NCBI GenBank assembly: GCA_012270635.1
Contig: JAAXHX010000160.1
Coordinates: 1 to 9,993, forward strand
DNA: 9,993 nt
Source of the DNA: Dehalococcoidia bacterium
GTDB lineage: Bacteria; Chloroflexota; Dehalococcoidia; Plut-88900
Direction: 5' to 3'
Under the pieces are notes generated by a model. It was given only the letters and a program-made list of their open reading frames with translations. It was not told the origin of the DNA and ran no database searches. The translations under genes and the position numbers were made by a program. How positions within the stretch are numbered: position 1 is the stretch's first letter; each line of letters starts with the position of its first letter. Shown piece after piece: positions 1-9,993 of this stretch.

Positions 1-8
1 TCCGAGAA

Positions 9-416
9 ATGTTTGTTATTGATGCCATCATGGAGAACATGCAGGACCTTAAGGATGCAATTGGAGATGCCACGGAACCATCATCACTTTATTTTCCCGT
101 GTTGGATCGGGGCGCAAAAGTTCTTGCCCTGAAAGGGTACAGGCAGGGTCTTGAAAAGATGAGTGATGTCGTGACTAATAGTGTTGGATTGCAGTCTCAT
201 GCCACTGAGGTCGAAAAGCATTTCAGTGACATGCAGCTTTTCCAAGACATCCGTGAAGCAGTACGCGCTAATCCGAAGTGTGACCAAAGCGATGTGAAGA
301 TTCTTGTTGCCGAAGTAGACGGACGGCGTGTGGCTAATCTCATCCAGTGGTTAGATAGGCACGGAGACATCATTCGTACTAGGGAGGGTCGTAAAATATT
401 TTTGGAGATTGCGTAG
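9..416 (+). CDS. Hypothetical protein, possible C-terminal winged helix, possibly 5'-truncated
   Basis: I do not recognise this protein. From the first visible ATG it is 135 residues with no signal peptide or membrane segment. The N-terminal half (about 1-75) is acidic and looks helical. The C-terminal part (about residues 80-135) reads like a small helix-turn-helix or winged-helix fold, ending in a basic/hydrophobic strand with an R-T-R-E-G-R-K core, which is inference from pattern only. The frame is open to the window edge (codons for R and E precede the ATG) and no convincing ribosome site fits in the eight upstream bases, so the true start may lie outside. Base composition is clearly lower in GC than the rest of the window (25 G/C in the first 60 bases by my count), which hints at a different origin from its neighbours. 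It ends 96 bases before a shared hairpin terminator. Confidence 0.6.
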   Translation: MFVIDAIMENMQDLKDAIGDATEPSSLYFPVLDRGAKVLALKGYRQGLEKMSDVVTNSVGLQSHATEVEKHFSDMQLFQDIREAVRANPKCDQSDVKILVAEVDGRRVANLIQWLDRHGDIIRTREGRKIFLEIA

Positions 417-511
417 AAGTAACAGATGTATCCGAGCTTCTTTTCCGGTTAATGAAGGTGTCGTACCAAGACTAGGTCTGAGGACAGTCAAACACACAAT
501 TCAAGAAGATA

Positions 512-540
512 AAGGGTCGCCGCCTTTTGCGACGACCCTT
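512..540. terminator. Bidirectional hairpin terminator between convergent genes
   Basis: Inverted repeat: bases 512-519 (AAGGGTCG) pair with 533-540 (CGACCCTT). After one C/A mismatch (520 with 532), 521-523 (CGC) pair with 529-531 (GCG), leaving a CTTTT loop. It lies 22 bases past the stop of the minus-strand amidohydrolase and about 95 bases past the stop of the plus-strand hypothetical gene. Flanks are only moderately T-rich in each direction (CATCTTCTCT on plus, TATCTTCTTG on minus), so it is a plausible but not textbook intrinsic terminator serving both genes. Confidence 0.6.
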
Positions 541-562
541 CATCTTCTCTAGAGGTGTGGGG

Positions 563-1693
563 TTAGTTGAGCCCGTAGAGTGCGGCGGCGTTTTCGCCGA
601 CTATCTTGACGGTCTCGTGCTCCGGGATGTCGTGGAAGTCTTTGGCGATTTGTTGGCGGGAGAAGGGGAATACGCCCTCGGGGTGGGGGTAGTCGGAGCC
701 CCACATCAGCCGGTCGATATTCAGAAGCTCTCGGGTGAGGAGTCCTGCACGGTCGTCCTCGAAGGTGGCCCAGAACTGGCGGAAGAAGTAGCTGCTGGGC
801 GGCTCTTCCAGCTTGGGCTCCATCCAGTGGCGGTGGTCCTCCCACCAGTGGTCGTTGAGGCGGAGGACGCTCGGGATCCAGCCGATGCCGCCTTCGGCCA
901 TGACGAAGCGGAGGCCGGGGAACGACTGGGGAACTCCCGAGAGGATGAGGTCGGTGAGGCCGCGGGCCACGGCGCATATCTTCTGTTCGATGACGGCGAC
1001 GCCGACACCCAGGCTGCGGTACTTGTCGGCGCTGACCGACTTCGTGCTGGAGCCAACGTGAAATCCGAGGGGCAGGCCGACGTCCTGAAGGGCGGCCCAA
1101 AGCCGGTCGCCGCCCTCCATGTTGACGTATCCGCCCTCCACTTCCAGGGGGAGCATTACGGACCTGAGTCCGAGCTTCGCCACCCTCTCCACCTCGGCGA
1201 CCTTGCTTTCGGTGGAGCCTCTCATGGGCAGGATCCCGACGCCGACGAGGCGGTCCGGGGCGGAGGCGCTGAACTCGGCGATCCAGTCGTTGTAGACGCG
1301 GACGATTTCGATGTGGAGGTCGTCGTCGGAGGCGTTGTAGGACCAGAGGCCGAAGACTCCCGGATACATGACCTCGGCGCGGACGCCGTCTAGGTCCTGG
1401 TCCTTCAGCCGTTCGACGGGGTCCCAGGCGCCGGGGCGGGTGTCGTTATAGCGCAGGCCGGCCATGTGAATTTCCTTACCCTCGGCCTTGTCCGTGGCGG
1501 CAGTGCCCTCGCCGGAAAGGCCGATGGCGAACTCTCCGAAACCTTCCATGACGTAGAAGTCGCCGGACTCCCGGGACTCGATGTGGGGGGCCTTTTCAGC
1601 AAGCTTCAGGTCCATGCGGGAGGTGAACAGGTCCTTGGGCTCTACGACGTGTCCGTCGGCGGAAACGTAGCTTCCGGTAAGGGTAGTTGGCAC
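563..1693 (-). CDS. Amidohydrolase 2 (ACMSD-like) family metal-dependent hydrolase or decarboxylase
   Basis: A cytosolic TIM-barrel enzyme of the amidohydrolase-2/ACMSD group, whose members hydrolyse or decarboxylate carboxylated ring and ring-derived compounds; the substrate is not predictable. Visible landmarks are the N-terminal S-A-D-G-H-V-V-E-P (residues 11-19), the mid-barrel G-F-H-V-G with His212, A-E-G-G-I-G-W (266-272) followed by an acidic/aromatic D-H-W-W-E-D-H-R-H-W helix (281-290), and the C-terminal M-W-G-S-D-Y-P-H-P-E-G (330-340) with metal ligand Asp334. D13-x-H15 stands where classical ACMSD has H-x-H; this acidic-x-His variant is common in the group. At 376 residues it is full length. 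The start is GTG at 1691-1693: an AGGAGG site (1700-1705) sits six bases upstream, and no better start is seen. It is divergent from the ureohydrolase gene. Family assignment is firm; function is open. Confidence 0.92.
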   Translation of the reverse strand: MPTTLTGSYVSADGHVVEPKDLFTSRMDLKLAEKAPHIESRESGDFYVMEGFGEFAIGLSGEGTAATDKAEGKEIHMAGLRYNDTRPGAWDPVERLKDQDLDGVRAEVMYPGVFGLWSYNASDDDLHIEIVRVYNDWIAEFSASAPDRLVGVGILPMRGSTESKVAEVERVAKLGLRSVMLPLEVEGGYVNMEGGDRLWAALQDVGLPLGFHVGSSTKSVSADKYRSLGVGVAVIEQKICAVARGLTDLILSGVPQSFPGLRFVMAEGGIGWIPSVLRLNDHWWEDHRHWMEPKLEEPPSSYFFRQFWATFEDDRAGLLTRELLNIDRLMWGSDYPHPEGVFPFSRQQIAKDFHDIPEHETVKIVGENAAALYGLN

Positions 1694-1737
1694 GGGTCAC
1701 CTCCTGAGGCTATCGCCTTTCCTCGTCCGCCCGGGAC

Positions 1738-1767
1738 ATTACGGCGATATGCTACCATCTCCGTCAA
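1738..1767 (-). promoter_or_regulatory. Candidate sigma70-like promoter for the amidohydrolase
   Basis: On the minus strand TTGACG (complement of 1762-1767, five of six matches to the -35 consensus) is followed after 18 bases by CGTAAT (complement of 1738-1743, four of six matches to -10). Transcription would start near 1731 and leave a leader of about 38 bases before the GTG at 1693. It lies in the 115-base divergent gap. I found no comparably good plus-strand promoter for the ureohydrolase. Confidence 0.3.
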
Positions 1768-1808
1768 CGCCGAAGGATGGGACAAGGCAGTAATCGGAGT
1801 CATTTCAC

Positions 1809-2768
1809 ATGGGTAACGTTGAAGAAAACCGCTTGATGCCCGAGGCATGGCAGCAGGGGCCCCGATACGGGACTCCGAACACCTTCATGCAGATCCCCGG
1901 CTCCCGGGACATGTCCAAGGCGGACGTGGCGATAGTCGGGTTCCCGTTGGACCTAGGAACGATCATCCGGTCGGGGGCGAGGTACGGGCCCCGGGGGATA
2001 CGGACGTCGTCGATGCACATCGGGCAGCACGGCCTGGAAACGGAAGAGCTCACCGAGCCCTTCAAGAGCCTTCGCATCGTGGATTACGGGGACATCGAGA
2101 TGCCCTTCGGTTATATCGAAGAGGCGGTGAGGCGCATCGAGGACGCGGTGACGGACATCATATCCCAGGACGTCTTTCCCGTTTGCCTGGGCGGCGACCA
2201 CACCGTGTCCCTGCCCATTCTGAGGGCGTTGTACAAGAAGCACGGGAAGATATCCTTGGTCCACTTCGACGCCCACCCCGACTTCTGGGAGCCGCCCAAG
2301 GACATGCCCCTGCATCACGGGACCATGTTCCGCATCGCCTCGGACGAAGGGATCATGGACCCCGCCACGTCGGTGCAGGTGGGGATTCGGGGCAGGCCCT
2401 CCATGGGCATAGTGGAGAACGTCAGGGCCGCGGGAATCACCGTGATCACCGGCGAGGAGTTCTGGCACACGGGGGTCGAGGCCACCATCGAGAAGATAAA
2501 GACGGCGACCAGGGGTCGCCCGGTGCACATCTCTTATGACATCGACAGCGTGGACCCGGGGTTCGCCCCGGGCACCGGAACGCCGGAGGTCGCGGGGCTG
2601 ACAAGCCGTGAAGCAATGGCCTTGGTGAAGGGGTTGAGGGGGGTCGGGGTGGTGGGTTTCGACATAGTGGAAGTTGCCCCGGTCTATGACATCTCTGAAA
2701 TAACGTCCCTTCTGGCTGCCAACCTGGTGTTGCAGTTCCTGCTCACCCTGGTCCCCGAGGCCAAGTAA
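1809..2768 (+). CDS. Arginase/agmatinase-family ureohydrolase
   Basis: A manganese-dependent hydrolase of the ureohydrolase superfamily (arginase, agmatinase, guanidinobutyrase, guanidinopropionase, formiminoglutamase), which removes urea or a related amidine product from a guanidino-type substrate. All six metal ligands are present: His131 in G-G-D-H-T, Asp154/His156/Asp158 in F-D-A-H-P-D, and Asp244/Asp246 in S-Y-D-I-D-S-V-D-P. The P-G-T-G-T-P-E signature (254-260) and the E288 region (G-F-D-I-V-E-V-A-P) follow, plus H-H-G-T at 169-172. The 319-residue length and an N-terminal extension of about 35 residues fit the agmatinase-like branch better than true arginase. The ATG at 1809 has a GGAG site at 1796-1799, nine bases upstream. 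The exact substrate cannot be read, so no gene symbol is given. It is followed closely by a DUF1801 gene. Confidence 0.93.
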   Translation: MGNVEENRLMPEAWQQGPRYGTPNTFMQIPGSRDMSKADVAIVGFPLDLGTIIRSGARYGPRGIRTSSMHIGQHGLETEELTEPFKSLRIVDYGDIEMPFGYIEEAVRRIEDAVTDIISQDVFPVCLGGDHTVSLPILRALYKKHGKISLVHFDAHPDFWEPPKDMPLHHGTMFRIASDEGIMDPATSVQVGIRGRPSMGIVENVRAAGITVITGEEFWHTGVEATIEKIKTATRGRPVHISYDIDSVDPGFAPGTGTPEVAGLTSREAMALVKGLRGVGVVGFDIVEVAPVYDISEITSLLAANLVLQFLLTLVPEAK

Positions 2769-2774
2769 GGCGGG

Positions 2775-3137
2775 GTGACGGGCATGCCGCCGAAGAAGAG
2801 CTTTGACGATTGGCTGAAGGACGTCGACGCTCGGCTCAGGCCCCTGGCAATAAGGCTGCGTCGGATGTTCCTGGACGCGGCCCCCGACCTCAGAGAGTCG
2901 ATCAAGTGGGGCAACCCGGTGTTCGAGAAGAGGGGAAGGGTCTTCTACATAGCCTCGCAAGGGGATAAATACGTGACGCTGGGGCTGTGGCAAGGAGCCC
3001 GGCTCTCGAACACCGAGGGCTTGATCGAGGGGACCGGGAAGGGGATGAGGCACGTGAAGATCAGGAAGGCGGAGGACCTGGAGGTCCCGGCTATCGGCGA
3101 TATCATCCGCGGGGCGCTGGAGGTGGATGGGGGGTGA
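2775..3137 (+). CDS. DUF1801 (YdhG/CyaY-like fold) domain protein
   Basis: A small soluble protein of 120 residues (117 if translation begins at the in-frame ATG at 2784) matching the DUF1801 pattern as I recall it: S-I-K-W-G-N-P-V-F (42-50), Y-I-A-S-Q-G-D-K-Y-V-T-L-G-L (58-71), and the signature E-G-T-G-K-G-M-R-H-V-K-I-R (85-97), then D-L-E-V-P near the end. The biochemical role of the family is unknown; a ligand-binding or stress role has been guessed for relatives. It begins six bases after the ureohydrolase stop with AAGG/GGGG sequence overlapping that gap, so the two are very likely cotranscribed. GTG at 2775 sits only four bases from the AAGG, so either start is possible. It fills the whole length of a single-domain DUF1801 protein. 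Confidence 0.85.
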   Translation: MTGMPPKKSFDDWLKDVDARLRPLAIRLRRMFLDAAPDLRESIKWGNPVFEKRGRVFYIASQGDKYVTLGLWQGARLSNTEGLIEGTGKGMRHVKIRKAEDLEVPAIGDIIRGALEVDGG

Positions 3138-3167
3138 CGGGTGTTGAGGGGATGGTGACAACCACCT

Positions 3168-3203
3168 CGCTCATACTTCGACAGGCTCAGCACGAGCGGC
3201 CCC
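3168..3203. repeat. Interspersed repeat, compact copy
   Basis: The element reads CGCTCATACTTCGACAGGCT and then CAGCACGAGCGGCCCC. Its ends are imperfectly self-complementary (CGCTCAT against the complement of CACGAGCG). A second copy with inserted bases lies at 4609-4668. Related CTTCGACAGGCTCAG elements are widespread intergenic repeats in many high-GC environmental bacteria (recalled knowledge). Translated, it gives the familiar spurious peptide L-R-Q-A-Q-H-E-R-P. It sits 31 bases past the DUF1801 stop. Confidence 0.8.
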
Positions 3204-3244
3204 ACCACCCCGCCCGAGGAACGTTTTCGACCAGATGATTCACC

Positions 3245-3274
3245 TTGTTTATGGTGGGAGGGTGAGACTATACT
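3245..3274 (+). promoter_or_regulatory. Candidate sigma70-like promoter for the M20 gene cluster
   Basis: TTGTTT (3245-3250) is followed after 18 bases by TATACT (3269-3274), a five-of-six match to the -10 consensus. This local dip in GC content lies about 70 bases ahead of the first M20 start codon. The -35 match is weak. An alternative is TTGATA at 3285-3290 (five of six) with a poor -10 near 3308. The gap 3138-3343 otherwise holds only the repeat copy and the ribosome site. Confidence 0.35.
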
Positions 3275-3343
3275 CGCCCCGTCATTGATAAGAAGCACTA
3301 AACCTTTTATTGCTGATGAACACACTTGTCTCGGGAGGTAGGA

Positions 3344-4594
3344 ATGGTTGACCAAGCCGTCGAGGAACGCGTGCTGCGCCAGATAAAGACCGAGCAAACG
3401 GTCAAGCTGTGCAGCGACCTGATATCCATACCCAGCTTCAAGACGGAGGAACAGAAGGTCGCGAGGTTTTTGGCGGGCTTCTTCCGGCGGAGGGGCTACG
3501 AGGTGGACCTGCAGGAGGTGGAGCCGGGCCGGTACCAGACGATAGCGACGTTGAAGGGGTCGGGTGGGGGGAAGAGCTTGATGCTGAACGGGCACATCGA
3601 CATCGACCCGCTGGCGATGGGATGGGTCCGGGACCCGTTTACGCCCAGCTGGGAAGGCGACCGGTTGTACGGGGCGGGGGTCAACAACATGAAGGGCGGC
3701 GTGACCGCGATCATCACCGCCGCGGAGGCAATACGCAAGGCCAGGGCCCCGATGAAGGGCGATCTGGTCATTGCCTGTGTCGTCGGGGAGCTTCAGGGAG
3801 GGGTGGGGACGGTGTACGCCCTGAACCAGGGCCTGAGGACGGACGGGGCGTACGTGTCGGAGCCGACGGGGGACGGCGACAACATCATGACGACCCACGC
3901 CGGCGTGGTGGAGTTGGCCATAAGCACCGTCGGCCTGTCGCAGCACGTGAGCCGCTCTCACCTGGCGGTCGATGCGCTGGAGATGATGACGAAGGCGATA
4001 CCGGCAATCAAGAACGTGGAGTTTACCTACACGCCTAGGCCCGACCTGCCCGACCTGCCCCGGATCATCGCCGGGACGATAATCGGGGGAAGGGGGAGGA
4101 ACCACGACCTGAAGGGCCCGAACTTTACCTGCGACTACTGCACGGTCATCGTGGATGCGCGGATCGTGCCTGGGCAGTCGCACGTGACGGTGAAGGCGGA
4201 CCTGGACTGGGCCCTGAGCAAGATCAAGGCCGAGGACCCGACCTTCGAATACGAGATAGTTACGCCCGTGCCGCCCGAGTACAAGGTGATGACGGTGTTC
4301 ATGAACCCGCTGGACGTGCCCAGGGACAACGTGATCGTGCAGAACCTGGAAAAGGCTTATCGGAGGGTGTCCGGGAGGGGGCCGGACAAGATCGGGGCGA
4401 TAGTTACCCAGTCCTACGCGGGGAACGATAGCTGTCACATCTGGGAAGCAGGCATCCCCGTGTGCCTGATGGGCGCGGAGAGCGGTCGGGACCAGAAGGG
4501 AGAGCCCGACTCCTTCGTCAAGGTCCCCAGCATGGTGCAGCTGGCGAAGACGTATGCGCTGGCGGCGTTGGACTGGTGCAACCAGGAGAGATAG
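3344..4594 (+). CDS. M20 family (ArgE/DapE-like) metallohydrolase, paralog 1, atypical metal site
   Basis: A cytosolic M20-fold enzyme (deacylase, deacetylase or dipeptidase type) of 416 residues. ATG at 3344 is chosen over the in-frame TTG at 3326 because GGGAGG (3333-3338) lies five bases ahead of the ATG, and because the length then matches the 414- and 415-residue paralogs. N-G-H-I-D-I-D (82-88) carries metal His84 and Asp86. The second motif reads G-A-G-V-N-N-M-K-G-G (110-119), with Asn115 where the family has the metal-bridging Asp. V-G-E-L-Q-G-G (147-153) keeps catalytic Glu149 but has Leu150 for the second Glu. S-E-P (172-174) keeps Glu173. The lid-domain His201 is in S-Q-H-V-S. The usual C-terminal A-H-x-P-D-E metal His is absent: the segment reads K-G-E-P-D-S-F. 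G-N-D-S-C-H-I-W (360-367) replaces the usual S/T-D-A-R. Fold assignment is firm; activity and substrate are uncertain. Confidence 0.9.
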   Translation: MVDQAVEERVLRQIKTEQTVKLCSDLISIPSFKTEEQKVARFLAGFFRRRGYEVDLQEVEPGRYQTIATLKGSGGGKSLMLNGHIDIDPLAMGWVRDPFTPSWEGDRLYGAGVNNMKGGVTAIITAAEAIRKARAPMKGDLVIACVVGELQGGVGTVYALNQGLRTDGAYVSEPTGDGDNIMTTHAGVVELAISTVGLSQHVSRSHLAVDALEMMTKAIPAIKNVEFTYTPRPDLPDLPRIIAGTIIGGRGRNHDLKGPNFTCDYCTVIVDARIVPGQSHVTVKADLDWALSKIKAEDPTFEYEIVTPVPPEYKVMTVFMNPLDVPRDNVIVQNLEKAYRRVSGRGPDKIGAIVTQSYAGNDSCHIWEAGIPVCLMGAESGRDQKGEPDSFVKVPSMVQLAKTYALAALDWCNQER

Positions 4595-4608
4595 GGGACA
4601 AACCCCCT

Positions 4609-4668
4609 CCGCTCATACTTCCCTTCGACAGGCTCAGGATAAACTAGGGGCTCAGCACGAGCGGCCCC
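4609..4668. repeat. Interspersed repeat, expanded copy with 18-base insertion
   Basis: Second copy of the element at 3168-3203, starting CCGCTCATACTT and ending GCACGAGCGGCCCC. Relative to the compact copy it carries three extra bases (CCC, 4621-4623) and an 18-base insertion (about 4638-4655), GATAAACTAG followed by GGGCTCAG. The insertion duplicates the GGCTCAG motif, so the copy has GGCTCAG at 4631-4637 and again at 4649-4655. It lies just past the stop of M20 paralog 1 and separates it from paralog 2. Confidence 0.75.
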
Positions 4669-4714
4669 TGCGCCCCTGTTCGTACTTTAGCGGGTTTGGG
4701 GTGAGGGGGCACTG

Positions 4715-4794
4715 GGGATGGATTCCCGATCGGAGTCGGGAATGACGGAGAGGGGGGATGGATTCCGGCTCGGGGGCCGGAATGACGGAGGGGA
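4715..4794. repeat. Two tandem 40-base REP-like hairpin units
   Basis: Two adjacent units share the frame GGGATGGATTCC...GGAATGACGGAG. In the first, ATTCCCGA (4722-4729) pairs with TCGGGAAT (4736-4743) around a six-base loop. In the second, ATTCCGGC (4762-4769) pairs with GCCGGAAT (4776-4783) around a six-base loop. Stems are start-to-start 40 bases apart. The stem sequences differ but each has compensating changes that keep eight perfect pairs, so the structure is conserved rather than the sequence. This resembles REP-type intergenic elements. The rest of 4595-4845 (the gap between M20 genes 1 and 2) shows nothing else except the ribosome site at 4836-4839. Confidence 0.8.
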
Positions 4795-4845
4795 GGATTG
4801 GTGGGGACATTAGGTTGGCCGAGGGAGCCGTGAACGGAGAGTGAT

Positions 4846-6090
4846 ATGGATGGAGCGGTGAAGGACAAGGTGCTCGGGAAGATCAGGGAAAGGGAGGTGG
4901 TGGACCTGTGCAGCAGGCTGCTGCGCATACCGAGCTTCAAAACGGAGGAGCAGAAGGTTGCGCGGTTCCTGGCCGGGTTCTTCCGGCGGAGGGGCTACGA
5001 GGTGGACCTGCAGGAGGTGGAGCCGGGCCGGTACCAGACGATAGCGACGTTGAAGGGGTCGGGGGGCGGGAAGAGCCTGATGCTGAACGGCCACATTGAC
5101 ATCGACCCCCTGGCGATGGGCTGGGTTCGGGACCCGTGGGCGCCAAGCTGGGAGGAGAACCGGCTATACGGAGGCGGGGCCTTCAACATGAAGGGTGGCG
5201 TGGCGTCAATGATCTCGGCGGCGGAGGCCATTCGGAAGTCGGGGGTGGGGTTGAAGGGGGACATTGTGGTGGCCTGCGTCGTGGGGGAGCTGCAGGGAGG
5301 GGTGGGGACGGTGCACGCCCTGGAAAGCGGCGTTACTGCGGACATGGCCATCGTGGCGGAGCCCTTCGGCTCGAAGACCATCATGACTACCCACGCTGGT
5401 GTGATCGGCATGGCCATCAACACCCTGGGATACTCGAAGCACATCACCGTGCGCGAAGAAGCCGTGGACGCGATCGGCAAGATGATGAAGGTGATCGAGG
5501 CGGTGGACAAGGTCGAACTGAGACACACGCCGCACCCCGATCTGCCGGGCCTGCCCCGGATAAACTGCGGGGCGATCATCGGGGGTCGGGGGCGGGAGCA
5601 CGACCTGAAGGGACCCAACTACGTGAGCGACTTCTGCACCTCCATCTGGGACGTGCGCATAGCGCCGGGCCAGACCGCCGAGACCGTCGAGGAAGACGTC
5701 AGGAAGGTTCTGGACGCCCTTAGCGCTCGGGACCCGGAGCTCAAGTGGGAGATGGAGATACCGCCGCCCGCGAGGTATAAGGGCGTCGTCGTGACCATGG
5801 ACCCGGTGGACATTCCCAGGGACGAGTACATAGTCGGGGCGGTCTCCCGGGCCATCGAGGAGCACACGGGAGCGCCGCCGGAGAACGTGGGGGCGATACT
5901 GCCCCGCTCCTACGCCGGCAACGACACGTGTCACCTTTGGAAGGCGGGCATACCGTGCGTGCTGAACGGGCCGGGGGGCGACAGATCGGTGGACGGGGAG
6001 GCCGACACCTTCGTCTACGTGAGCGATATGGTCGAGTGCGCCAAGACCCACGCCCTGACGGCCCTGGAAGTCTGTAACCTGCCGGCCTAG
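4846..6090 (+). CDS. M20 family metallohydrolase, paralog 2, atypical metal site
   Basis: A 414-residue paralog of the preceding M20 gene. ATG at 4846 has GGAG (4836-4839) six bases upstream. Family landmarks: N-G-H-I-D-I-D (81-87) with His83 and Asp85; G-G-G-A-F-N-M-K-G-G (109-118) with Asn114 in place of the bridging Asp; V-G-E-L-Q-G-G (146-152) with catalytic Glu148 but Leu149; A-E-P (171-173) with Glu172; lid His199; G-P-N-Y-V-S-D-F-C-T (257-266) and D-V-R (269-271), typical of the C-terminal catalytic half; G-N-D-T-C-H-L-W-K-A-G-I-P (358-370), then G-P-G-G and V-D-G-E-A-D-T-F (382-389), where the metal His is missing. Residues about 30-97 are almost identical to paralog 1, while the rest is roughly half identical by eye. 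The next paralog starts 15 bases after its stop, so the two form an operon. The substrate is unknown. Confidence 0.9.
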   Translation: MDGAVKDKVLGKIREREVVDLCSRLLRIPSFKTEEQKVARFLAGFFRRRGYEVDLQEVEPGRYQTIATLKGSGGGKSLMLNGHIDIDPLAMGWVRDPWAPSWEENRLYGGGAFNMKGGVASMISAAEAIRKSGVGLKGDIVVACVVGELQGGVGTVHALESGVTADMAIVAEPFGSKTIMTTHAGVIGMAINTLGYSKHITVREEAVDAIGKMMKVIEAVDKVELRHTPHPDLPGLPRINCGAIIGGRGREHDLKGPNYVSDFCTSIWDVRIAPGQTAETVEEDVRKVLDALSARDPELKWEMEIPPPARYKGVVVTMDPVDIPRDEYIVGAVSRAIEEHTGAPPENVGAILPRSYAGNDTCHLWKAGIPCVLNGPGGDRSVDGEADTFVYVSDMVECAKTHALTALEVCNLPA

Positions 6091-6105
6091 CCGGGGAGGT
6101 CGAGA

Positions 6106-7353
6106 ATGGCTGCTCAAACTTTGGATAGAGTCACGAACCGAGTGAAGGAAGACTGGGTCCTGGGGTTTGCGAAGAAGCTGATCGACATACCGAGCTTCAA
6201 GACCGAGGAGTCCGAGATAGCCCTGTTCCTGGCCTCGAATTTCCGGCGCTGGGGCTACGAGGTTGACCTTCAGGAAGTGGACCCGGGCCGATACCAGGTG
6301 GTGGCGACGCTGCGGGGCACGGGGGGCGGGAAGACGCTGATGCTGAACGGGCACATAGACATGGACCCGCTCTCCATGGGGTGGAAGCGAGACCCGTGGG
6401 CTTCGACGGTGGAAGGGGACCGGCTCTATGGAGCGGGAATCTACAACATGAAAGGGGGCGTCGCCTCCATAGTGGCGGCGGCGGAGGCGCTGCGTCGGGC
6501 CAAGGCGGCCCTCAAGGGCGACGTCCAGGTGGCCTGCGTGGTGGGGGAGCTGCAGGGAGGGATGGGCACCGAATACGCCCTGGCTCAAGGATACCGGCCC
6601 GATATGGCGATAGTGGCGGAACCCAACGACGCGGACACTGTTCTTACCGTTCACGCCGGCTGGCTGGAGATGGCGGTGAACGTGCTGGGCGAGTCCCGGC
6701 ACATCAGCCAGAAGGAGAGCGGGGTCAACGCCATCCAGAAGATGTCCAGGGCGATAGAAGCGATAAACGGGCTGGAACTGGCGCACACCCCTTTCCCGGC
6801 CCTGCCGTCGTTGCCGCGGCTCCACGTGGGGGCGATCATCGGGGGGCAGGGGAGGGACCACGTGATAAACGGCCCGAACTTCGTGCCGGACTTCTGCACT
6901 GCCCTGGTGGATGGGCGCATGGTCCCGGGGCAGACGTCGGCGGGGGTCCTGGAGGAGGTGCGGCGGGCCCTGGACGCGGTCAAAGCCTCGGACCCCGAAT
7001 TCGAGTATGAAATCGAGATGCCGCCGCCCGCGGGGTACCGGGTGCTTCGCACGGTGATGGAGCCGATGGACATGCCGACGGACGAGGAGATCGTCAAGGC
7101 GGTGGCCCGAGGGTATAGGGCGGTCACGGGGGGCGAGTTGGCCCACGTCGGGAGCAAGACCCCGAACTCCTACTCGGGGAACGACACCACGCACATGTGG
7201 AAAGCGGGCATCCCGTGCGTTCTCTACGGGCCGGGAGGCGCCTGCGACGAGCGGGAAGGCGAGCCGGACAACTACATCCGCATCAGCGACATGGTGACCT
7301 GCGCCAAGGTCATCGCGGCGACGGCGCTGGACGTCTGCAATCAGGAGGGGTAA
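6106..7353 (+). CDS. M20 family metallohydrolase, paralog 3, atypical metal site
   Basis: The third tandem paralog, 415 residues. ATG at 6106 has GGGGAGG (6093-6099) six bases upstream. It shares the atypical active-site set: N-G-H-I-D-M-D (81-87) with His83/Asp85, G-A-G-I-Y-N-M-K-G-G (109-118) with Asn114, V-G-E-L-Q-G-G (146-152) with Glu148/Leu149, A-E-P with Glu172, lid His199, and G-N-D-T-T-H-M-W-K-A-G-I-P (358-370) followed by G-P-G-G. The C-terminal metal His is again absent (E-G-E-P-D-N-Y, 384-390). It is the most divergent of the three: R-D-H-V-I-N-G-P-N replaces the R-x-H-D-L-K-G-P-N seen in the other two, which could mean a different substrate. Its last 13 bases overlap the end of the convergent alpha/beta hydrolase gene, leaving no room for a terminator in between. 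Confidence 0.9.
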   Translation: MAAQTLDRVTNRVKEDWVLGFAKKLIDIPSFKTEESEIALFLASNFRRWGYEVDLQEVDPGRYQVVATLRGTGGGKTLMLNGHIDMDPLSMGWKRDPWASTVEGDRLYGAGIYNMKGGVASIVAAAEALRRAKAALKGDVQVACVVGELQGGMGTEYALAQGYRPDMAIVAEPNDADTVLTVHAGWLEMAVNVLGESRHISQKESGVNAIQKMSRAIEAINGLELAHTPFPALPSLPRLHVGAIIGGQGRDHVINGPNFVPDFCTALVDGRMVPGQTSAGVLEEVRRALDAVKASDPEFEYEIEMPPPAGYRVLRTVMEPMDMPTDEEIVKAVARGYRAVTGGELAHVGSKTPNSYSGNDTTHMWKAGIPCVLYGPGGACDEREGEPDNYIRISDMVTCAKVIAATALDVCNQEG

Positions 7354-8042
7354 CCGGGGGCCGCCAACTTCTCCCTTAGCCAGCCGAATAGGATCTCATT
7401 CAACTCTTCCCGACATTCGTTCAACCCGTGCCCCGCGCCCTGGAAGCAGCGAAGCTCCTTGGGCTGGCCTGCCAGGTCATATATGAACTGGGAAGCGCGG
7501 ACGGGGATTATGGCGTCGTCGGTCCCGTGGACCAGGAGGAGGGGCCTGGGGGCCACCTCCGAGACCCGTTGGGCGCCGGCGCTCTGGCTGGACAATCCCA
7601 CCACGGCGACGATCTTATCGTTGTAGGGCGCGGCGGCTATGACCACGGCCCCTCCGAAGGAATGGCCGACCAGGGCCAATCGCTTGAACCCGACCCCCAG
7701 CAGCAGGGTCGTCCCGGCGAGGGTGTCGAGGACGGACTCGTAGAGATCGTTGGGCCAGCGGTAGTCGAGCCTGAGAGAAGCTATGCCCTCGCCGGCCAGG
7801 CGCTCGGCGAGGCGAACGTAGATGCTATCGGCGGGGCCGGTAACTCCGCCCCCGGCGCCCCACACCCAGAGGACGGCAGCGTCCATGGTCTGGGTGGCGT
7901 GAAAGAGGCTGAATATGTTGCCGCGGGTGGTGTTGATGAGGATTCCCTGGCCGGAGTGGCCTTCGGGGGCGCGGAAGCGATGGTACCCCTGGACCTGGAT
8001 GGCCTCGTCGTCGGTGGGCGGCGGGCCGGCGGGGCCGGTCAT
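7341..8042 (-). CDS. Alpha/beta hydrolase
   Basis: A 233-residue serine hydrolase of the alpha/beta fold, probably cytosolic, with substrate unknown. The catalytic triad is readable: nucleophile Ser128 in V-G-H-S-F-G-G (125-131), Asp176 in V-H-G-T-D-D-A-I-I-P (171-180), and His205 in G-A-G-H-G-L (202-207). The oxyanion/strand region W-G-A-G-G-G (61-66) and the compact cap-less layout resemble dienelactone-hydrolase or small acyl-esterase relatives. The ATG at 8040-8042 overlaps the stop of the upstream gene as ATGA, and no Shine-Dalgarno site is seen before it, so translation is probably coupled to the MetE-like fusion gene. It is the last gene of the minus-strand operon and runs 13 bases into M20 paralog 3. 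Its role in the operon is unclear; hydrolysis of an ester or thioester linked to the upstream sulfur proteins is speculation. Confidence 0.88.
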   Translation of the reverse strand: MTGPAGPPPTDDEAIQVQGYHRFRAPEGHSGQGILINTTRGNIFSLFHATQTMDAAVLWVWGAGGGVTGPADSIYVRLAERLAGEGIASLRLDYRWPNDLYESVLDTLAGTTLLLGVGFKRLALVGHSFGGAVVIAAAPYNDKIVAVVGLSSQSAGAQRVSEVAPRPLLLVHGTDDAIIPVRASQFIYDLAGQPKELRCFQGAGHGLNECREELNEILFGWLREKLAAPGYPS

Positions 8043-9559
8043 GAGGCCGGGACCAGGTCTCGGGCCTGGACAATGGCCCTCAGCTTGGCCTCGGCGGTCC
8101 TGGCGGAGGCGACGGGGTTGTCGGCGAAGGTGGCGAACCCGCAGTCGGGGGTGAGGAGAAGGCGCTCCCTGCCGAAGAGGTCGATGCCGAGGTCTATGCT
8201 CTTGCGGATGTCATCGGGACTTTCCACGGCGTCCAGCTTCTGGTTCACCACGCCGATGGCGATGCGCTTGTCGTCGGGGAGGGATCGGAGGACGGCGGCG
8301 TCCCCGGCGCGGGGCGTGGAGAGCTCCAAGAAGAGGGTCTCGACGTGGACGCGTTTGAGGAGGTCGAGGAGGGGCCGGTAGTCGCCCGACAGGGCGGCGG
8401 ACTCGTCCCGGGTCCAGTTGCCGCGGCAGACGTGGAGGCCGAGGCGGTCGGGCGGGAGGTCTCGCACGAGGTCGTTGAGAAGGCCTGCGGCGAAATCAAG
8501 CTCGGCGGCGGGCGGCAGCTTCTCGCTGAGGGCCCCGCACATGAAGGTGCGATTGCCGGTCGCGCTGCCGAAAACGACCTCGGTGAGAACGGGCTCGTCG
8601 AACTGTACGAGGGCCGCGCCGGAGGCGAGGAGGAAGTGGAGCTCTTCGCGCAGGACGCGGACCACGTCTCGGGCGAGGTCTTCGCGGGTCCGGTAGGGGA
8701 GGTCGGTGAGGCAGTCGAGCCACATGGTGCGGGTGAGGAGGTAGGGGCCAGGGATGGCGACTTTGACGGGTCTATCGGCGCACTGTGCGGCGAACTCAAG
8801 CTCGTGGAGAGCGAGGGGAGCGCTTCTGCCGAGCTTTCCGTAGACGACGGGGTGGCGGACTTCGCCGGCGGGCACGTCGAGGGCGCGCAGCTCTTTCTCG
8901 AACTTACCGGGATCATCGACCATGGCGGTGAGGTCGGTGAGGGGGATGATCTGGCAGTTGTCCAGGAGGCCGCCAACGAAGCTGGCGTAGCTGTCGCGGC
9001 GCTGCTCTCCGTCGGTTACCACGTCGACACCGGCGCGCAGCTGGGCGTCGATGGAGAGGCGAACTGCGTCGTCGGCGGTGGCCTGGAATTCGTCCTCATC
9101 GAGGCGTCCTTCGATGCGATCATGGACTGCCTGAAGCATCCATCGGGGCCGAGGCCAGCTCCCGATTCCCATGACGGACAGGGCCTCGATTCTGGGGGCG
9201 GCGGAGGGTGGGGGGAGGGAGCCGGGGATGGAGACCTCAACGCGTAGCTGCCGGCCTATGGACGGGGATGAGGGGAGGGGAGTCGAGGGTCGACGCTCCT
9301 CCAGGGGGCCCTTGCACACGAGGAAGCTGCGCTGCCCGTTCCTCCTGGTCCAGGAAACGAGCTCGTTCCCGGTCATCCGGCACCAGGAGGGAAGCTCGAC
9401 CTCTACGGTGGAGTCGGTTGAGAGGATTTCGAGGAGGCCGCCGCGTTTCATGGGGTCGATGTGGCGGCGGATGAGCAGGAGCAGGCCGCCACCGCAGTCG
9501 AGGTCACCGCCGTCGAAGCTGACGTCGGGCGGGTGCAGGTGGCGATGGATGTGGTCCAT
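8039..9559 (-). CDS. TusA-like domain fused to MetE-type (cobalamin-independent methionine synthase) zinc catalytic domain
   Basis: A two-domain protein of 506 residues. Residues about 15-84 resemble TusA/SirA sulfur carriers: D-L-D-C-G-G-G-L-L-L-L (19-29), then L-L-E-I-L-S-T-D (42-49) and L-P-S-W-C-R-M-T-G-N-E-L-V (56-68). The position of the CPxP motif reads L-L-L-I, so the sulfur-carrying Cys is absent; other cysteines are C22, C60 and C82. A Pro/Ser-rich linker (about 85-125) follows. Residues about 128-506 are the C-terminal MetE barrel: G-I-G-S-W-P-R-P (131-138), V-T-D-G-E-Q-R-R (181-188), Q-F-D-E-P-V-L (319-325), and the zinc ligands His376/Cys378 (G-L-H-V-C-R-G-N), Glu412 and Cys473 (P-D-C-G-F). 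The MetE N-terminal barrel is missing, as in short methionine synthases and coenzyme M transferase relatives, so methyl donor and acceptor are uncertain. The ATG at 9557-9559 lies 21 bases past the DsrE-like stop and lacks a clear ribosome site, so the start is less certain. Confidence 0.85.
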   Translation of the reverse strand: MDHIHRHLHPPDVSFDGGDLDCGGGLLLLIRRHIDPMKRGGLLEILSTDSTVEVELPSWCRMTGNELVSWTRRNGQRSFLVCKGPLEERRPSTPLPSSPSIGRQLRVEVSIPGSLPPPSAAPRIEALSVMGIGSWPRPRWMLQAVHDRIEGRLDEDEFQATADDAVRLSIDAQLRAGVDVVTDGEQRRDSYASFVGGLLDNCQIIPLTDLTAMVDDPGKFEKELRALDVPAGEVRHPVVYGKLGRSAPLALHELEFAAQCADRPVKVAIPGPYLLTRTMWLDCLTDLPYRTREDLARDVVRVLREELHFLLASGAALVQFDEPVLTEVVFGSATGNRTFMCGALSEKLPPAAELDFAAGLLNDLVRDLPPDRLGLHVCRGNWTRDESAALSGDYRPLLDLLKRVHVETLFLELSTPRAGDAAVLRSLPDDKRIAIGVVNQKLDAVESPDDIRKSIDLGIDLFGRERLLLTPDCGFATFADNPVASARTAEAKLRAIVQARDLVPAS

Positions 9560-9580
9560 GAGAAGCTCGGGGCGCGGTGG

Positions 9581-9943
9581 TCAGTAGGAGACGGAAGGGC
9601 TGTTGTCGGACAGGAACTCGACGAGCTTGGCCCCGCCGACGATTACGGCCCCATCGACGAGGTTGTTTTCGTCAAGGCCTCGCTTCTTGAAGCACGGGGC
9701 GCAGACGTAGATGGCCCCACCGACCGCCGCGAAGTTGCCCATGAGCTCCTTGAGGGGCAGGAACCCTTCCTCGTGCACATCGTCGGCGTAGCCCTTCTGG
9801 GAGAGGCGTACGCCCTCGGTGCTGAGGAAGACCATGGTCTCCTTCTCGGAGCCGAGGGCGGCGTTGGCTATGACGAAGGCGACGGTGGCCTTGTCGGTGT
9901 TGTCCTTGGCGTGGGTGAGGCTGATGCAGAATTTTCCGGACAT
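9581..9943 (-). CDS. DsrE/DsrF-like (YchN-fold) sulfur-relay family protein
   Basis: A 120-residue soluble protein with the DsrE/TusD-like fold: strand F-C-I-S-L-T-H (5-11), helix with K-A-T-V-A-F-V-I-A-N-A-A (18-29), strand T-M-V-F-L-S-T-E-G-V (37-46), then I-Y-V-C-A-P-C-F-K-K-R-G-L (78-90) and A-V-I-V-G-G-A-K-L-V-E-F-L (99-111). Cys81, in the strand-end position where DsrE/TusD proteins hold the persulfide-carrying Cys, is paired with Cys84 as CxxC; Cys6 is a third. Family proteins pass sulfane sulfur between partners such as TusA. The ATG at 9941-9943 has AAGGAG (9949-9954) five bases upstream. It sits 21 bases before a gene with a TusA-like domain, supporting a shared sulfur-handling role, though the partner lacks the CPxP Cys. 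Confidence 0.87.
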   Translation of the reverse strand: MSGKFCISLTHAKDNTDKATVAFVIANAALGSEKETMVFLSTEGVRLSQKGYADDVHEEGFLPLKELMGNFAAVGGAIYVCAPCFKKRGLDENNLVDGAVIVGGAKLVEFLSDNSPSVSY

Positions 9944-9961
9944 GTTGGCTCCTTACGGGGT

Positions 9962-9993
9962 CTATTTCTGTTCGATCCAGTAGTGGGGGTGGT
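9962..9993 (-). CDS. Possible C-terminal end of an upstream operon gene (partial)
   Basis: On the minus strand the last 32 bases read in one frame as H-P-H-Y-W-I-E-Q-K followed by a TAG stop (complement of 9962-9964), 18 bases ahead of the DsrE-like start codon. The composition looks like a real protein C-terminus and the spacing fits the operon. The fragment is too short to identify and other frames are also open, so this is tentative. Confidence 0.35.
   Translation of the reverse strand, partial: HPHYWIEQK

Follow-up and report, generated by a model that had tools for sequence, protein, structure and literature searches.

What do three adjacent M20 genes encode when all of them carry the same rewritten metal site? 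The question is raised by a window of 9,993 nt (the whole stretch of DNA analysed; forward strand, positions 1-9,993, of contig JAAXHX010000160.1, assembly GCA_012270635.1, Dehalococcoidia bacterium), in which the three genes, identified as open reading frames (ORFs) with Pfam matches, and their altered codons, placed by alignment and arithmetic, lie as follows.

3344..4594, + strand: M20 gene 1, 416 aa, Asn-type (ORF; Pfam M20 and dimer domain; Asn115, Glu149-Leu150)
3686..3688, + strand: Asn115 codon of gene 1, at the bridging Asp position
3788..3793, + strand: Glu149-Leu150 codons of gene 1, catalytic Glu and lost second-site Glu
4846..6090, + strand: M20 gene 2, 414 aa, Asn-type (ORF; Pfam; Asn114, Glu148-Leu149)
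5185..5187, + strand: Asn114 codon of gene 2, at the bridging Asp position
5287..5292, + strand: Glu148-Leu149 codons of gene 2, catalytic Glu and lost second-site Glu
6106..7353, + strand: M20 gene 3, 415 aa, Asn-type (ORF; Pfam; Asn114, Glu148-Leu149)
6445..6447, + strand: Asn114 codon of gene 3, at the bridging Asp position
6547..6552, + strand: Glu148-Leu149 codons of gene 3, catalytic Glu and lost second-site Glu

Judging from sequence, the trio probably encodes paralogous single-metal M20 hydrolases of amides or related C-N bonds, within an Asn-type clade that contains 5-nitroanthranilate aminohydrolase (5NAA-A); we put the probability of this reading at roughly 0.6. Family membership is clear from PF01546 scores of 66.2, 70.2 and 92.5 bits (gathering cut-off 24.6) and PF07687 scores of 27.9, 35.4 and 48.7 (cut-off 21), and all three proteins stay below the cut-off of the ArgE/DapE deacylase model TIGR01910 (187.3, 198.3 and 209.1 against 217.6 bits). 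Compared with the protein of gene 1, the other two show 61 and 52% identity, and the AlphaFold2 model of gene 2 has a predicted local distance difference test score (pLDDT) of 95.4. For gene 1, the listed ORF opens at TTG 3326, and ATG 3344 has GGGAGG immediately 5' of it.

A first-pass annotation had named a set of residue changes in the three proteins, and alignment of the trio found every one of them in place. N-M-K-G-G stands for D-M-K-G-G (Asn115/114/114 in genes 1/2/3), Glu-Leu for Glu-Glu (Glu149-Leu150, Glu148-Leu149 and Glu148-Leu149), and the C-terminal stretch contains no His (KGEPDSF, DGEADTF, EGEPDNY). Present in all three are His84/83/83-x-Asp86/85/85, Glu173/172/172, the lid His201/199/199 and a D-x-x-H motif (Asp362..His365 in gene 1, Asp360..His363 in genes 2 and 3). 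The annotation had also taken the altered positions to be a bridging Asp, a second-site Glu and a second-site His, which agrees with EcArgE as described in PMC11270798, where Zn1 is bound by H80, E169 and D112, and Zn2 by D112, E145 and H355. Measured against EcArgE, the trio retains residues matching H80 and E169 as well as the catalytic Glu, as had been stated for the first site; D112 has become Asn, E145 has become Leu, and H355 corresponds to nothing. Because the D112, E145 and H355 equivalents are gone and those of H80 and E169 are kept, what the trio has lost is the second metal site and the bridge. None of the three ligands typical of the dinuclear enzymes DapE, ArgE and CPG2 (the bridging Asp, the second-site Glu and the His near the C terminus) is present. 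The Glu of the G-E-(P/A)-D segment was considered as a stand-in for the lost C-terminal His and dropped, as it is not kept across the wider branch.

How far this signature extends was addressed by three protein searches at E<=1e-10, with gene 2, residues 41-423 of 5NAA-A and an Anaerolineae relative from locus L032 as queries. The homologues considered below are the best 120 each of 2785, 968 and 672 proteins, and represent the nearest members rather than clade size; counts refer to the trio's own branch (W branch, n=123), the 5NAA-A branch (n=120) and L032-like proteins (n=120). Asn at the bridge position, with a second-position residue other than Glu (L 126, T 124, I 101, M 6, V 2) was found in 359 of the 360 listed homologues, the remaining one (P0182) being a fragment with a gap at the site. 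His83, Asp85 and Glu148 (gene 2 numbering) are kept in 359/359 alignable listed homologues and Glu172 in 360/360.

The same division runs through 75 M20 proteins from fetched loci, which were the sufficiently long, non-duplicate rows among 106 profile hits: 49 are Asn-type and 26 Asp-type, with Glu at the second position in 22/26 Asp-type versus 0/49 Asn-type rows. By a loose count of any His in the C-terminal segment (~20 letters), the figures are 21/26 for Asp-type and 9/49 for Asn-type rows, 6/123 for the W branch and 5/120 for the 5NAA-A branch. The 34 relatives from genome collections include Chloroflexota (many Dehalococcoidia, two SAR202, one Anaerolineae) and records from Candidatus Rokuibacteriota and Bacillota; Thermomicrobiales and Nocardioides are also recorded. 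The reduced site, as read from these alignments, is common to many relatives and not private to the trio's locus. PF01546 and TIGR01910 do not set the Asn-type clade apart, and several members are therefore named, for example, acetylornithine deacetylase by their source.

The closest protein of known structure by sequence is 5NAA-A. In a phmmer search of PDB sequences with gene 2, it ranked first (5k8m 2.1e-23, 5k8p 2.4e-23), followed by 7uoi (1.6e-21), and a profile built from 20 members of the W branch, with no sequence of the 5NAA-A branch included, gave 2e-31 for 5k8p and 5k8m, 3.9e-30 for 3pfo and 7.4e-30 for 7uoi. This lead over ordinary dinuclear relatives is narrow; 3pfo overtakes 5NAA-A when the match is scored as one stretch (102.6 vs 86.5 bits), and structure comparison (Foldseek, VIA-align) did not single out 5NAA-A, with 3pfo and 7uoi scoring equal. 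In the alignments 5NAA-A has N-C-K-G for D-M-K-G, G-E-I for E-E and a C-terminal segment without His (motif positions His86, Asp88, Asn124, Glu158-Ile159, Glu196 and Arg373-Asp374). Because 5NAA-A carries the same three changes, the signature is not new to this locus, and the suggestion that the site was newly invented in these paralogs is not supported. The first-pass annotation would itself have yielded had the signature turned out to be a characterised, ordinary subgroup; it is characterised in the sister branch, where the PDB titles of 5NAA-A (original paper, Kalyoncu et al. 2016) describe apo, substrate-bound, Mn2+/product-bound and Zn2+/tetrahedral-intermediate-bound R289A forms, but not in the branch of the trio. 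The site of 5NAA-A is said to be mononuclear with a labile metal. Literature searches for mononuclear M20 enzymes and for M20 peptidases of SAR202, judged by title and abstract, yielded nothing on point. By alignment, then, the trio has an altered M20 active site that is shared with relatives and has been characterised in part.

Phylogenetic analysis placed the trio relative to 5NAA-A in two trees, one of 92 rows (13 Asp-type) and one of 97 rows (26 Asp-type) from which the signature columns and C-terminal segment had been removed. In the first, Asp-type and Asn-type rows fall on opposite sides of a branch with support of 100/98. In the second, Asn-type rows including 5NAA-A and the trio group together (100/95), but one Asp row, L101, lies inside, and several Asp rows form long branches. 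L101 has Asp at the bridging position and His-Lys in place of Glu-Leu; with His at the catalytic Glu position, it is aberrant and by alignment lacks that Glu. The 5NAA-A branch (5NAA-A, its homologues, L059 and L064) has support of 100/97 and 99/97 in the first and second tree, respectively, and the trio's branch 99/94 and only 96/74, so that the split between them is well supported in the first tree. These trees place the trio in an uncharacterised branch beside that of 5NAA-A. Nearest relatives differ for each gene (L001 for gene 1; P0002 and P0001 for gene 2; L010 and P0101 for gene 3), and since each gene groups with its own relatives, the duplications appear older than the split from them.

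If the trio are single-metal hydrolases, each subunit would hold one divalent metal at site 1 through His83 and Glu172, with Asp85 adjacent and Asn114 serving as a weak or second-shell ligand. Glu148 would activate the metal-bound water, and lid His199, contributed by the partner subunit, would steady the tetrahedral intermediate, roles that we assume by likeness to DapE and ArgE. Stabilising this intermediate during amide hydrolysis is the role of the lid His in canonical M20 enzymes. Substrates would be small molecules with amide or related C-N bonds, and oligopeptide-type ABC transporters, found beside some relatives, may import them; three copies side by side may cover different substrates.

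Residues beyond the shared signature bear on the chemistry. The residue preceding the conserved Asp is Arg in 119/119 alignable 5NAA-A-branch proteins and D/N/E in 123/123 of the W branch; the Arg289 column, whose placement varies with the alignment, holds Arg/Lys in 110/120 and F/Y/W/H in 123/123, respectively. Column counts thus give the trio no equivalent of Arg289 (mutated in 5k8p) or Arg373, residues that may define 5NAA-A activity. His199, like Asp360 and His363, is present in 123/123 W-branch proteins. Some lid-segment His occurs in 118/120 L032-like and 43/120 5NAA-A-branch proteins, in both of which the column shifts with the alignment, and for this residue we used the W-branch count and 5NAA-A itself, which has none; because of the 43, the lid is not a clean branch separator. 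Given that the W branch keeps the lid His, with its role in amide hydrolysis, we infer that these differences favour amide-type chemistry over aromatic substitution. Less probable is a variant in which the branch consists of single-metal M20 hydrolases, tandem-expanded in some Dehalococcoidia-like Chloroflexota, that cut aryl, heteroaryl or guanidino C-N bonds instead of ordinary peptide or acyl-amide ones, using an auxiliary set, the lid His and D-x-x-H, unlike that of 5NAA-A.

More doubtful is that the trio are aminohydrolases of aromatic or heteroaromatic amines, working by the metal-assisted nucleophilic aromatic substitution (SNAr) proposed for 5NAA-A. Common clade and metal-site signature speak for it, as does the known chemistry: according to PMC9814641, 5-nitroanthranilate is bound by an M2+ ion (Mn or Zn) that 5NAA-A coordinates, and its aryl amino group is exchanged for hydroxyl. 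The reaction is thought to follow an SNAr-type pathway (PMC11903332), and the Bradyrhizobium JS329 pathway opens with 5-nitroanthranilate deamination (PMC4539516, PMC10306065). The branches differ, however, at the Arg289 and pre-Asp Arg columns and, as a weaker separator, at the lid His, and no ring-cleavage family appeared among the Pfam/NCBIfam matches of the 10 scanned window proteins.

A dinuclear site rebuilt with new ligands, for example with His363 of D-x-x-H replacing the lost C-terminal His, is unlikely. What speaks for it is that Asp360 and His363 are invariant in 120/120 listed W-branch and 120/120 L032-like proteins, and that position 363 is never His in the 119 alignable 5NAA-A-branch proteins (P, V, C, A, I or S). 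Yet the bridging Asp is Asn and the second Glu is L/T/I/M/V throughout the alignable homologues, and His363 is not clade-wide, being found in 41/48 alignable Asn-type locus rows, with Trp in 4. That the trio are non-catalytic binding proteins or metal-free, as the annotation had also allowed and as the loss of half of the metal ligands might suggest, is most improbable, given the retention of Glu148, His83, Asp85 and Glu172 across the listed homologues and the metal dependence of 5NAA-A, which has suffered the same losses (PDB titles; PMC9814641).

Maintenance of the genes was assessed from substitution rates. Against their nearest array copies, the three genes have dN/dS of 0.162/1.14, 0.133/0.96 (344 codons, partial) and 0.152/1.06, a ratio of ~0.14, and gene 1 against L002 gives 0.250/1.01 (0.25), all values being rough because synonymous sites are near saturation. 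By these estimates the trio is under purifying selection, in keeping with the earlier view that the altered site is not decay. Relatives in the metagenome-assembled genome B41T1B8 keep an M20 array: L001 has adjacent gene-1-like and gene-2-like copies running to the locus end, whereas L010 carries the tail of a copy whose highest score is with gene 2, together with one gene-3-like copy and the beginning of a further one. Matches to gene 2 at E<=1e-40 occur in 5/100 genomes drawn from the class of G001, and G002, the genome with L001, has 11, some of them fragments at contig ends; distribution is patchy and locally expanded.

Several features of the array's DNA were also recorded. Over 60 codons, 3434-3613 of gene 1 and 4933-5112 of gene 2 encode identical protein with 91-93% identical DNA, while other 30-codon bins are just 40-77% identical in protein; third positions are identical at 49/60 codons, which is raised. 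High protein and DNA identity together with raised third-position identity suggests that the two genes have undergone gene conversion. Gene 1 lies between intergenic copies of a TTCGACAGGCTCAG...GAGCGG element (3177-3199 and 4624-4664), and a similar string occurs in 3/104 fetched loci. Between genes 1 and 2, 4714-4793 comprises two head-to-tail 40-base units, each an inverted repeat (TTCCCG...CGGGAA or TTCCGG...CCGGAA) followed by TGACGG; searching the 104 fetched loci with the one pattern used gave no copy.

A codon-score gene caller placed nine genes in the window, besides an extra ORF at 3-416 without a match in a Pfam scan. The neighbours of the trio are as follows.

563-1693, - strand: Amidohydro_2 gene (Pfam)
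1809-2768, + strand: agmatinase-family (arginase superfamily) gene, upstream of the trio (PF00491 and TIGR01230 above cut-off)
2775-3137, + strand: DUF1801 gene (Pfam)
7341-8042, - strand: alpha/beta hydrolase (Pfam)
8039-9559, - strand: gene matching the cobalamin-independent methionine synthase catalytic domain (Pfam)
9581-9943, - strand: DsrE gene (Pfam)

The agmatinase-family protein scores 206.6 bits with TIGR01230 (cut-off 174.3) and possibly acts in the same pathway as the trio. An operon with this arginase-like gene was considered and found weak, an arginase-family neighbour occurring, by clustering of the neighbours, in 1/34 related loci (L008). Neighbours in related loci were called by a codon-score script, and 109 of the 118 listed, from 24/34 loci, were scanned, giving approximate raw counts of 11 ABC permeases, 6 family-5 binding proteins, 6 metallo-beta-lactamase folds, 4 MFS transporters, 3 amidases and 3 Amidohydro_2 proteins, the last family occurring also in the window itself. 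Single cases were the carboxyltransferase-domain subunits CT_A_B and CT_C_D (L001), an ATC-hydrolase-like protein (L013) and DUF1989 (L028). Together, these neighbours hint at catabolism of amide-like compounds. A metallo-beta-lactamase-fold gene (PF00753; cluster 3) adjoins the Asn-type M20 gene in 7/34 loci, from Dehalococcoidia and other Chloroflexota (for example L011, 7114-7992). Two Chloroflexota loci, L032 and L033, share a conserved cluster around an Asn-type M20 gene, comprising a YheO-like PAS regulator, a RidA-family protein, E1-dehydrogenase and transketolase-domain subunits, two dehydrogenase-like genes and an amidohydrolase; homologues of the L032 M20 protein have Asn with Glu-Thr in 120/120 (best 120 of 672).

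Overall, our analysis suggests that the reduced site of 5NAA-A, far from being peculiar to one nitroaromatic-degrading Bradyrhizobium, is the hallmark of a broader M20 clade. Such a family, which naturally lacks one metal site and differs in its lid residues, could serve to test the role of the second metal in M20 enzymes. With the dinuclear deacylases DapE and ArgE (TIGR01910), the trio has in common its architecture, site-1 ligands, catalytic Glu and lid His, whereas the site-2 ligands and bridging Asp present there are lost. The putative acetylornithine deacetylase RPA2325 (PDB 3pfo) likewise differs, having the usual Asp and Glu-Glu and, in its C-terminal segment, a His. In contrast, 5NAA-A from Bradyrhizobium sp. 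JS329 (PDB 5k8m/5k8n/5k8o/5k8p), at 28% identity to gene 2, belongs to the same clade and resembles the trio in its M20 fold, H-x-D motif, Asn at the bridge position, non-Glu residue after the catalytic Glu, retained Glu196 and missing C-terminal ligand His. It departs from the trio in lacking the lid-segment His and D-x-x-H, both of which the trio has, and in its Arg289 and Arg373, which are replaced in the trio by an aromatic residue and Asn.
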